A stretch of 34,082 bases of DNA from Plantactinospora endophytica (GTDB lineage Bacteria; Actinomycetota; Actinomycetes; Mycobacteriales; Micromonosporaceae), in NCBI RefSeq assembly GCF_016862915.1, contig NZ_BONW01000026.1:1-34082 (forward strand), in the 5' to 3' direction. Below, piece after piece: positions 20,791 to 23,491 of the stretch. How positions within the stretch are numbered: the stretch's first letter is position 1; the number at the start of each line of letters is the position of its first letter. The notes beneath the pieces are model-generated. The model was not told where the DNA came from, searched no databases, and saw only the letters and a list, made by a program, of their open reading frames with translations. Position numbers and translations under genes: made by a program.

Positions 20791-21609
20791 TCAGGCGGGC
20801 AGGCCGCCGACCTGGGTGTTGATCCAGGACCGGATGGAGGACAGGTCGCCGTAGATGGACGGCCCGGTGGCGCAGGTCGGGTTGTTGTTACCGGCCCGAC
20901 TGGTCGCACCGATCAGGTTCCACCGGCCACCGACGCTGCGCACCTGCGGGCCGCCGGAGTCGCCGTAGCAGGCGCCCGCGTTGCCGTTCGTGTTGTTGGT
21001 GCAGATCTCGTACGTCCCGTTGATGCCGGAGCAGCGGCTGTCGGCCACGATCGACGTGTCCAGCTCGTTGGCGACGGTCGGCGCCGAACCGCAGCCCCGG
21101 ACCGGACAGGTCTGTCCCCAGCCGATGATCCGGGTCGCCGTACCGACCGCACCGGAGGTGGTCGGGATGACGGCCGGGGCGTGGCTCACCGAACTGGCGA
21201 GCTGGAAGAGCTTCACGTCGATGGACGGGTGGTTCACCGCGCGCAGCACGCTGACCACGGTGCCACCGCTGCTGCGGTTGATGCTGCCCACCCGTACCGA
21301 ACTGGGCGTGGGACAGTGCTTGGCGGTGACCACCCAGTTGGCCTTGATCAGCGAGGCCGAGCAGCCCGAGGTGTAGACCAGGAACGAGTAGTTCTCCGAC
21401 GCCGGCCGGCCGTTCACCACCATCGTGCCGACGCCGCCGTCGCCGTCGGTGGCCTCCGGTCCGGGTGCCTGGGACGCCGCCGGCACGTTCGCGTACCCGG
21501 CCGAGGGTGCGGCCGAGGCGACGGCCGGCAGGGACAGGCCGGCAGCGACCAGGGCGGCCACCAGACAGGTACGGCGGAGAAGCACCCGGGCCGGGTGTGG
21601 TCGGGACAT
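20791..21609 (-). CDS. Secreted S1-family (chymotrypsin-fold) serine protease
   Basis: 272 residues with a signal peptide (about 1-34) and a short propeptide. The triad candidates are His98 in VVTAKHC (a Lys replaces the usual Ala), Asp131 in SIDVKLFQL and Ser218 in CYGDSGGP. The residue at chymotrypsin position 189, six before the Ser, is Gly rather than Asp, so trypsin-like Lys/Arg specificity is not expected despite the trypsin-like fold. Six Cys pairs in typical places point to disulfides. It acts outside the cell. The ATG at 21609 has a TGGAGG Shine-Dalgarno. An AT-rich patch near 21670-21690 probably contains the promoter. Confidence 0.9.
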   Translation of the reverse strand: MSRPHPARVLLRRTCLVAALVAAGLSLPAVASAAPSAGYANVPAASQAPGPEATDGDGGVGTMVVNGRPASENYSFLVYTSGCSASLIKANWVVTAKHCPTPSSVRVGSINRSSGGTVVSVLRAVNHPSIDVKLFQLASSVSHAPAVIPTTSGAVGTATRIIGWGQTCPVRGCGSAPTVANELDTSIVADSRCSGINGTYEICTNNTNGNAGACYGDSGGPQVRSVGGRWNLIGATSRAGNNNPTCATGPSIYGDLSSIRSWINTQVGGLPA

Positions 21610-21733: not shown

Positions 21734-21793
21734 TTGACCCACGACCCGGTCGAGTTGACCCTCGACCTGGTCGAGGGGGCACAATCCCTGGTC
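21734..21793 (+). promoter_or_regulatory. MerR-type autoregulated promoter, duplicated operator
   Basis: TTGACC (21755-21760) and CACAAT (21780-21785) are separated by 19 bp, the abnormal spacer of MerR-regulated promoters. The spacer contains the perfect palindrome CCCTCGACC-T-GGTCGAGGG (21759-21777). A 21-bp segment at 21734-21754 is repeated at 21755-21775 with two mismatches, so operator and -35 are duplicated in tandem. The -10 ends 8 nt before the ATG and no Shine-Dalgarno is present, so the mRNA should be leaderless. Confidence 0.75.
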
Positions 21794-23047
21794 ATGGACG
21801 GGGGTGGCCGACTGCTCGGCATCGGCGAGATGGCCCGGGCCAGTGGCCTGAGCATCAGCGCGCTGCGTTTCTACGACGGTGCCGGCGTACTGGCGCCCGC
21901 CCTGGTGGACCCCGGAACCGGCTACCGCCGCTACGCCGAACGGCAGCTACCGGCCGCCCGCCTGCTGGCCGGCCTGCGCCGGATTGGTATGCCGCTCGCC
22001 GAGATCACCCGACTGCTGGAGCTGCGCGGATCGGACCCGGCCGCCGTGTCGCGGCTGCTGGACGCGCATCTGCGTCGACTGGAGGACGGGCTCGCCGACG
22101 CCCGCCGGGAGGTGGCCCGGCTCCGGGTGCTCTGCACCGCCACGCCGCCGACGGTCGGGCCGGAGGTCCGGCTGACCGTGGCCGGACGGGAACTGGCCGC
22201 AGCGGTCGACGCCGTCCGGTTCGCCGCCGGGGCGGATCCCGGGCTGCCGATGCTGGGCGGGATCTACTTCGAGATCGACCGGGGCGTGCTCCGACTGGTC
22301 GCCACCGACCGGTACCGGATGGCGGTGTCGGCGGTCGCCACCGACGGCTACCCGACGGTCCTGCCGGAGATCGCCACCGACGGACACTCGACCTTCGCGC
22401 CGGGAAGCGCCACCGACGGGTACCGGCGGGTGGTGTCGGCGGGCGACGACGACCGGATCGGCACCGGCACCGCGGCGGGCGACGACGCCGGTGCGACGGT
22501 CGGCGCCTCGGGGGTGACGGCACCGGTCGCGTTCGTTGACGCGGCCCGGGCGCTGCTGACCGGTGGCTGGCCGGCCACCCTCACCCTCGGGCCCGCCGCC
22601 ATCAGCCTCAGCGTGCGGGACCGGCGGGTCAGCGGCACCCCGACGGGGCACGACTTCCCGGACTACCGCCGGTTGCTCCGGACCGCCACCGACGGGCCGG
22701 ACCGCCGCCGGGTGACCGTCGACGTGGCCGGGCTACGCGAGCGGCTGGCCTGCGCCGAGACCCGGACGGTGGTACGCCCGGACGACGGCGCACGGTGTGC
22801 GGTAAGCGTCCTCGCGGTCGACGCCGCGAACCGGCTCACCGTCTCTCCCGCCGACGCGCCGGCCGAGCCGAGCGGTCCGGGTCCGGTGGTACGGGTCGGG
22901 GTGAACCGCGAGTTCCTACTCGACGCCCTGGACGCGGTCGGCCCGGGCCAACTGGTCCTCGAACTCGACGGACCGATCCGCCCACTGGCGGTACGCCGAC
23001 TCGACGACGACCGCGCGTTCTCGATCCTGATGCCGATCCAACTCTGA
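21794..23047 (+). CDS. MerR helix-turn-helix fused to beta sliding-clamp domains II-III
   Basis: 417 residues. The N-terminal 1-112 form a MerR winged helix (LGIGEMARASGLSISALRFYD, then GYRRY) with a dimerisation helix. Residues about 125-417 match domains II and III of DNA polymerase III beta (DnaN): LRLVATDRYRMAV at 166-178, FPDYRRLL at 288-295, VGVNREFLLDAL at 368-379 and the C-terminal ILMPIQL. Clamp domain I is absent, in effect replaced by the MerR part. A domain II loop (about 180-245) is expanded with three ATDG(Y/H) repeats. The peptide-binding cleft of clamps lies between domains II and III, and its recognisable residues (ATDxxR, MPxxL) are kept. It may be a DNA-binding regulator that recognises clamp-binding-motif proteins. 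The ATG at 21794 starts the HTH. Confidence 0.88.
   Translation: MDGGGRLLGIGEMARASGLSISALRFYDGAGVLAPALVDPGTGYRRYAERQLPAARLLAGLRRIGMPLAEITRLLELRGSDPAAVSRLLDAHLRRLEDGLADARREVARLRVLCTATPPTVGPEVRLTVAGRELAAAVDAVRFAAGADPGLPMLGGIYFEIDRGVLRLVATDRYRMAVSAVATDGYPTVLPEIATDGHSTFAPGSATDGYRRVVSAGDDDRIGTGTAAGDDAGATVGASGVTAPVAFVDAARALLTGGWPATLTLGPAAISLSVRDRRVSGTPTGHDFPDYRRLLRTATDGPDRRRVTVDVAGLRERLACAETRTVVRPDDGARCAVSVLAVDAANRLTVSPADAPAEPSGPGPVVRVGVNREFLLDALDAVGPGQLVLELDGPIRPLAVRRLDDDRAFSILMPIQL
22336..22430. repeat. In-frame repeat in the clamp-like domain II loop
   Basis: GCCACCGACGG recurs three times at about 48-bp spacing, giving ATDGY, ATDGH and ATDGY segments. They lie downstream of the true ATDRYRM motif and look like copies of it. 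Confidence 0.65.
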
Positions 23048-23080: not shown

Positions 23081-23491
23081 TCAGGCGTCCTCGCCCAACT
23101 CGGTGAAGAGGGTCAGTTGCAGGTGACCGGGAGCCGCCAGCCGTGAGTTCAGCGAGTTCCACGGCGTACGGGTCGGCTCGGCGATCACCGTCGCGCCCGC
23201 GTCGGCGAGGGTCGCGGTGACCGCCGGGGCGTCGTCGACCTCGAACGCGACCCGGATGTGCCCGGCGACCCGACGGCCCACCTCGACCTCGTCGATGTAC
23301 TCGGCGTGCCCCGGATCGGTGATCTCCAGGGTGGCCAGCCCGGCCTCCAGGATGGTCACCCGACCGTCTGGTGAGGAGAACGCCGCCCGTTCCGGCAGGC
23401 CCAGCACGTCCCGATAGAACCGGAGTGCCTCGTCGTAGTCGTCGGCGGTGACCACCAGCCGGAGTTGTCGGACCGGGGACGGCTCAATCAT
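23081..23491 (-). CDS. VOC/glyoxalase-superfamily protein
   Basis: 136 residues comprising one vicinal-oxygen-chelate unit with two beta-alpha-beta-beta-beta modules (RLVVTADDYDEALRFYRDVLGL near 11-32; HIRVAFEVDDAPAVTATLADAGA near 78-100). Such proteins dimerise and bind a metal. Ligand candidates are limited, as the first strand lacks the usual His, so it may be a binding protein or resistance factor rather than a glyoxalase. The ATG at 23491 gives the typical family N-terminus. It is convergent with the MerR/clamp gene and divergent from the L,D-transpeptidase. Confidence 0.82.
   Translation of the reverse strand: MIEPSPVRQLRLVVTADDYDEALRFYRDVLGLPERAAFSSPDGRVTILEAGLATLEITDPGHAEYIDEVEVGRRVAGHIRVAFEVDDAPAVTATLADAGATVIAEPTRTPWNSLNSRLAAPGHLQLTLFTELGEDA

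Follow-up and report, generated by a model that had tools for sequence, protein, structure and literature searches.

A MerR-type regulator joined to half of a sliding clamp in Plantactinospora endophytica and its relatives, a possible sensor of clamp-binding antibiotics

The hallmark of a MerR activator is an over-long promoter spacer (19-20 bp) that holds the operator dyad. The drug-sensing activators of this family, among them BmrR, BrlR, TipA and EcmrR, have in common with the protein described here an N-terminal MerR domain, which is among the matches to solved structures, a long helix, an over-long spacer filled by the dyad and an operator at transporter genes, but the effector part is different, being in our case half of a sliding clamp and, to our knowledge, none of the known MerR effector domains. 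BlaR1 and MecR1 are also close in one respect, as their sensor is derived from the family of the antibiotic's target; they are membrane receptor-proteases, whereas the fusion, which shares the target-family sensor, is a one-component MerR regulator. With the sliding clamp DnaN the fusion shares domains II and III and the client cleft, although it has no domain I, lacks the strand at E. coli positions 300-310 in most members, and has a DNA-binding domain attached.

Clamp clients, the griselimycins and mycoplanecin all bind the same cleft of DnaN, according to the accessible text of two papers (PMC11139829, PMC10817943). Griselimycin resistance accompanies dnaN amplification (PMC8765428), and the producers of griselimycin and mycoplanecin carry a second dnaN (PMC10817943), again as the accessible portions have it. 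In the GriR/MypR self-resistance systems of the latter paper the second DnaN is the remedy; the fusion is not a complete second DnaN, but one that is complete, at locus L203 in genome G060, stands behind the operator described below. The words "MerR" and "regulator" do not occur in that paper's main text. Among titles and abstract openings of the open-access literature we found no account of a MerR-clamp fusion, and neither a drug-sensing nor a clamp-occupancy role for one.

Architecture and cleft of the fusion protein

The gene lies in a stretch of 34,082 nucleotides from P. endophytica (NZ_BONW01000026.1; hereafter the window). Its features are as follows.

21794 to 23047, plus strand: MerR-beta clamp fusion gene, an open frame of 417 residues with no internal stop; MerR_1 and DNA_pol3_beta_2 both detected in each of the 61 aligned orthologs
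21818 to 22021, plus strand: MerR winged-helix DNA-binding domain, residues 9-76 (Pfam MerR_1/MerR)
22037 to 22135, plus strand: long helix, residues 82-114 (AlphaFold2 model)
22163 to 22690, plus strand: beta-clamp domain II, residues about 124-299 (Pfam, ortholog profile, AlphaFold2, alignment, Foldseek)
22703 to 23044, plus strand: beta-clamp domain III, residues about 304-417 (ortholog profile, AlphaFold2, alignment, Foldseek)
22301 to 22324, plus strand: cleft element ATDRYRMA, E. coli T172-L177 region (alignment)
22655 to 22678, plus strand: cleft element FPDYRRLL, E. coli P242-V247 region (alignment)
22904 to 22915, plus strand: cleft element NREF, E. coli N320/Y323 (alignment)
23030 to 23044, plus strand: cleft C-terminus MPIQL, E. 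coli M362-R365 region (alignment)

A sequence-only reading of the window had proposed that a MerR domain replaces domain I of a clamp, leaving domains II and III, and both Pfam and an ortholog profile agree with it. In the fusion product Pfam finds MerR_1 at residues 10-76 (E 5.7e-11), MerR at residues 10-47 (E 2.9e-9) and DNA_pol3_beta_2 at residues 129-181 (E 3.6e-10), all above cut-off, while DNA_pol3_beta_3 at residues 366-415 stays below it (E 0.003), as a diverged copy, and the NCBIfam dnaN model gives a two-stretch match, also below cut-off (8.8e-16). The profile, built from the clamp part of 20 orthologs, aligns with solved clamps along its full 239 positions (E about 1e-32), in E. coli beta over residues 127-365, so that domain III is present as well. 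A chance or frame artefact was rejected because frame and domains are kept in relatives at 34-90% identity. We also rejected the possibility that residues 1-115 are a clamp domain I, this region being MerR; of the three domains of a DnaN the fusion has II and III only. Weak matches to the domain I model, PF00712, occur in 28 of the 61 orthologs and fall on domain II in L029, L030 and L109, the three for which match coordinates were obtained; we read them as the known likeness among clamp domains, probably not a true domain I.

The AlphaFold2 model has a mean pLDDT of 88 for the entire protein and 83 for the clamp part alone. A long helix follows the helix-turn-helix in this model and by its position is presumably the MerR coiled-coil dimerisation helix, the dimer role being one we take over from the MerR family. 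With Foldseek, all matches listed for the whole protein and for the clamp part are clamps, which rank first for the clamp part alone at E 2.8e-16 and include 8ciz, DnaN with mycoplanecin A. The superposition is loose, as the rmsd is 4.7-6.7 A over the 50 matches listed (TM by query length 0.67-0.69). With a winged-helix domain at its N-terminus and a long helix behind it, and with the promoter described below, the product is by the features tested a predicted MerR regulator, whose sensor part we did not find described.

Within domain II the window copy has a 36-bp in-frame repeat of 3.5 copies (22299 to 22424, plus strand), which adds copies of a 12-residue ATDGY-type element beginning like the cleft motif ATDRYRMA. 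The repeat-encoded copies form a low-confidence loop in the AlphaFold2 model and were not seen in the relatives aligned.

The 102 fusion loci that we collected represent 99 distinct sequences. Five (L026, L029, L030, L031 and L101), with C-termini that were cut or could not be aligned, were left out of the cleft alignment, which holds 97 fusion proteins, or 47 after thinning at 70% identity. Taking the list of cleft residues from the accessible text of a review (PMC11139829), we found a mean conservation of 0.82 at the 18 cleft positions against 0.57 at random clamp positions, with none of 20,000 draws as high; at the positions common to E. coli and host DnaN the values are 0.91 and 0.65. T172, R176, M362 and P363 (E. 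coli numbering) are kept in all 47 thinned members, P242 in 45 of 47 and N320 in 41 of 47. The same four residues are also kept in 26 of 26 rows that come from the whole-genome search alone and are free of the pattern bias of the earlier search for relatives. The client cleft is, as judged from these alignments, the best-kept part of the clamp half. The window copy deviates at the R365 position, where it has Q and 41 of the 47 thinned members have R.

That reading had also expected the loss of domain I to abolish the ring. In line with this, most of the 47 members have gaps at E. coli positions 300-310, where an edge strand of the ring interface lies, and the domain III interface strand of a DnaN (E. 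coli 298-310) is not found in the fusion. At the I272/L273 columns the fusions have mainly T/A and P/R, although host DnaN is gapped there and the alignment is unsure.

Relatives and gene neighbourhood

Relatives in other actinomycetes, which had only been suspected, were found in Micromonospora, Actinoplanes/Paractinoplanes, Kitasatospora, Streptomyces, Blastococcus, Geodermatophilus, Rhodococcus, Kineosporia and Ornithinimicrobium. Of 246 actinobacterial genomes drawn, among them the window's own, 8 gave a match at E up to 1e-40; the fusion is widespread but patchy in actinobacteria. Over the part that aligns, the fusion of Plantactinospora mayteni (L032) does not differ from the one in another genome of the genus, G003. 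The window genome has one canonical DnaN elsewhere. Some relatives are carried on plasmids, as six plasmid records match the query over 80% or more of its length; in the annotated plasmid records examined the protein is called only "MerR family transcriptional regulator". We considered and rejected the idea of phage cargo, as the clamp part has no match among phages; viral contigs likewise gave no fusion match, in a search able to detect close relatives only.

Gene neighbourhoods are genus-specific, and among the clusters scanned a gene for a TPR-like protein is the only function common across genera. The neighbours of the fusion gene in the window resemble, by eye, a trypsin-type secreted protease (20791 to 21609, minus strand) and a glyoxalase/VOC protein (23081 to 23491, minus strand). 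A divergent subfamily (L029-L031, L107, L109 and L114-L117) has a related but different dyad, of the TTGACCTTCAAGTTGGTTGAAG type; the TPR-like gene directly adjoins the fusion at most of them, while none was found at L031.

The predicted operator and its putative target genes

The segment just upstream of the gene, which the sequence-only reading had suggested as a DNA site for the protein, has a predicted MerR-type promoter and a further copy of the operator core.

21755 to 21785, plus strand: predicted MerR-type promoter/operator, with -35 TTGACC at 21755-21760, -10 CACAAT at 21780-21785 and a 19-bp spacer
21734 to 21754, plus strand: tandem near-copy of the operator core, with 1 mismatch (sequence match)

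The operator dyad, CCCTCGACC-T-GGTCGAGGG, occupies 21759-21777, inside the 19-bp spacer as is typical of MerR activators, and the fusion start codon comes 8 nt after the -10. In six genomes of the genus TTGACC-19 bp-CASAAT with the dyad is an almost invariant block; the tandem copy is absent from the other five genomes aligned. More broadly, 91 of the 102 fusion loci carry the 21-mer TTGACYCTCRACCNGGTYGAG no more than 130 nt from the fusion and with 2 mismatches at most, and in 89 of those 91 an equally spaced -10 follows. Of 76 well-formed sites, 69 have their first in-frame start codon 6-8 nt past the -10, a distance that suggests leaderless mRNA at these promoters. Given an over-long spacer with a dyad ahead of the fusion's own gene, autoregulation is the natural inference. 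In four Rhodococcus the perfect operator lies not before the fusion but before a TPR-like gene upstream, which extends to the fusion. An Actinoplanes fusion gene has three tandem operator copies ahead of it (L267:1507-1606), where the window has two. Direct control of the window neighbours was rejected, as the sole operator matches in the window at up to 3 mismatches lie at 21734-21781, before the fusion.

Elsewhere in the window genome, the operator at up to 1 mismatch precedes an MFS transporter gene on contig C19 and a gene on contig C45 for a TPR-like protein of 159 residues, which together with the fusion makes three places only. The three-mismatch search of the genome gave 25 matches in all against 18 with the reversed pattern, and these matches are mostly noise. 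Pfam TPR matches of the C45 protein are weak and below cut-off, and by tblastn it resembles the fusion-adjacent TPR-like protein in Rhodococcus and on a Streptomyces plasmid. The MFS targets match MFS_1 above cut-off and drug-efflux models below it. Judging translations by eye, we found the MFS site in all six fusion-bearing genomes of the genus and the TPR-like site in five of them; no operator site was found in G006, a genome of the same genus without the fusion.

Presence of the operator follows presence of the fusion in the family as well. Counting by eye at up to 1 mismatch, we found sites in 20 of 22 fusion genomes and in 0 of 22 fusion-less genomes of the window's family, fusion-less meaning a best match weaker than 1e-21 with at most 17 candidates scored per genome. 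Reading the lists for 300 genomes of the family, we found a site at up to 1 mismatch in 192 and the backward pattern in 3. In genomes G000-G060 the operator occurs in 22 of 25 fusion genomes and 1 of 36 fusion-less ones (Fisher p 2e-12; table 22, 3, 1, 35, counts entered by hand); the single exception, L367, has neither a -10 nor an assigned gene.

We classified 161 sites, 62 in a first batch, which includes two-mismatch sites that start with TTG, and 99 in a second; those outside G000-G060 are the sites among the matches listed, a subset of those in the 192 genomes. By hand count, 32 two-mismatch sites were left out, 31 of them lacking the initial TTG. The fusion itself follows 61 of the 161, and the 100 non-self sites precede TPR-like genes (39), YunG genes (23), MFS genes (18), DnaN genes (5) or none of these (15), although many of the genomes are closely related and site counts are non-independent events. 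The A and T of the -10 at 19-bp spacing are found at 85 of 85 assigned sites and 5 of 15 others, against a background of 1.7%. As the reference target proteins were drawn from the window genome, plasmids and the first 18 regions, the second batch is an independent test, and in it 43 of 50 non-self sites fall into the same four classes. L263 is counted as MFS at only 30% identity, and L284, whose MFS-like frame is about 300 nt off and which has no -10, is counted outside the classes. Three sites (L333, L341 and L354) have the sequence GTGACCCTCGACCTGGTCGAGAACGG and no -10, resemble coding sequence, and are a likely class of false operator matches.

By sequence, neither TPR-like L121 nor YunG L207 has a PDB match. 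By eye, a Cys, a His and an Asp are kept in every one of the 23 YunG proteins behind the operator (PF24585; L207:1643-2431 and 22 other loci), a set that we take to resemble papain-like or transglutaminase-like enzymes. At L207 the YunG frame continues into a NUDIX domain. We know of no link between either class and clamp drugs.

Clamp genes are few. In G060 the operator (1 mismatch) is followed, with a GTG start directly after the -10, by a second DnaN of 367 residues (L203), which matches all three clamp domains above cut-off and the dnaN equivalog model above threshold. Its dimer residues are as in main DnaNs, and its cleft is altered by T172I, P242V and a T at position 360, where main DnaNs have T (28 of 28), P (27 of 28) and L (28 of 28). 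A second-clamp search of the 300 genomes at E up to 1e-95 found only G060 itself and the main DnaN in G040. Searched in two genomes of its genus, the flank of the L203 contig gave no more than short, scattered matches, and the contamination value of G060 is 7 (7%); these two facts, with its being a singleton among 300 genomes, weaken L203 as evidence for a second clamp. G060's own fusion has a promoter 4 mismatches away from the consensus, which, with the contamination and the contig flank, leaves the link between this operator-DnaN pair and the fusion unproven. Other second DnaNs (L243 and L244) have no operator site upstream.

In four Micromonospora-group (g4) genomes the operator stands 690-702 bp upstream of the main dnaN and points at it; by eye these sites adjoin a DnaA-box-like sequence. 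They occur in 3 of 13 g4 genomes among the sites listed, plus G050 (L211, 2 mismatches). The idea that dnaN is under the operator everywhere was rejected, as a site at up to 3 mismatches was found at L223 only of 31 DnaN loci scanned, two of which are the same gene. Further dnaN-upstream sites, beyond the 31-locus scan, are at L246, L247 and L249, and the window genome has no DnaN in its regulon.

Candidate ligands of the clamp half

Starting from the architecture, the kept cleft, the lost ring strand, the MerR-type promoter and the shared operators, all as read from the sequences, we tentatively suggest that the fusion may sense clamp-binding antibiotics, griselimycins for example, by mimicking their target; of the ligands considered this class seems the most plausible to us, at something short of confidence. 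The ligand-binding part would be a captured half of a sliding clamp on a MerR-family activator, and the fusion dimer would sit on the dyad between the -35 and -10, which are 19 bp apart. A griselimycin- or mycoplanecin-like cyclic depsipeptide would fill the fusion cleft as it would that of DnaN, the filled cleft would lead to a distorted promoter, and the fusion would then switch on its own gene along with export, the TPR-like and YunG proteins, and an extra clamp where present. The antibiotic would be felt through the fold of its own target.

An alarm for such drugs best accounts for a clamp cleft as sensor together with exporters, and sometimes clamps, as targets. The dnaN amplification and second dnaN known from resistance and from producers are the same remedies as the regulon's clamp genes. 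It is possible, if a little doubtful, that the regulon as a whole acts against clamp poisons, through an exporter, a clamp that is additional or altered in its cleft, and, as new protective factors, the TPR-like and YunG proteins; these last two would perhaps inactivate or sequester the peptide drug, an action on the peptide that for YunG is speculation. Several findings count against a drug sensor. The commonest targets, TPR-like and YunG, make up 62 of the 100 non-self sites and DnaN only 5, the Q of the window copy falls at R365, a residue contacted by mycoplanecin, and the cleft would serve an endogenous peptide as well.

The last point leads to the main rival, in which the cell's own replication or repair proteins would dock on the cleft with their clamp-binding motifs and the occupancy of the cleft would report a shortage of free clamp, raising dnaN and related genes. 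The same conserved cleft serves this explanation equally, and the sites 690-702 bp upstream of dnaN in four Micromonospora-group genomes speak for it. It leaves exporters unexplained, however, and MFS transporters follow 18 of the 100 non-self sites; a site at only one of 31 DnaN loci also counts against clamp homeostasis. The 85 assigned targets, moreover, include no repair, polymerase or translesion gene, a finding that also led us to reject an SOS or translesion regulator. We consider clamp homeostasis unlikely, though it deserves to be kept in mind; the target set, with TPR-like, YunG, MFS and DnaN genes and no repair genes, appears to suit an alarm for clamp inhibition somewhat better. 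The interpretation given in the sequence-only reading is thus partly supported: its proposal that the fusion reads clamp-binding peptides of replication or repair proteins has found no support so far.

Alternatively, the clamp fold might have been reused as a pocket for some other small molecule or peptide, apart from clamp inhibition, with the regulon as a general export and modification response. MerR regulators often control pumps, no role in the clamp is known for the TPR-like and YunG genes that dominate the non-self sites, and DnaN is seldom a target, with the second copy found in one genome only; these points speak for such a sensor. It is, however, the client-contact residues that are kept, with no new pocket, and the operator does stand ahead of some DnaN genes, and we regard this explanation, too, as rather unlikely. 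A much less probable arrangement has the TPR-like protein as the signal input, docking on the clamp half to hold or release the fusion. The adjacency of the two genes in Rhodococcus and in the divergent subfamily would agree with this, as would the rank of TPR-like genes as commonest target (39 of 100 non-self sites), although direct binding is not required of a target.

A widespread family, annotated in the plasmid records examined only as "MerR family transcriptional regulator", thereby gains a testable role. If the ligand is endogenous, clamp occupancy would, in some genomes, be coupled to transcription around the replication origin. If it is a clamp inhibitor, as we tentatively favor, the operator would serve as a biosensor of antibiotics that target DnaN, themselves leads for tuberculosis drugs, and the regulon would predict how soil actinomycetes may already resist such drugs.
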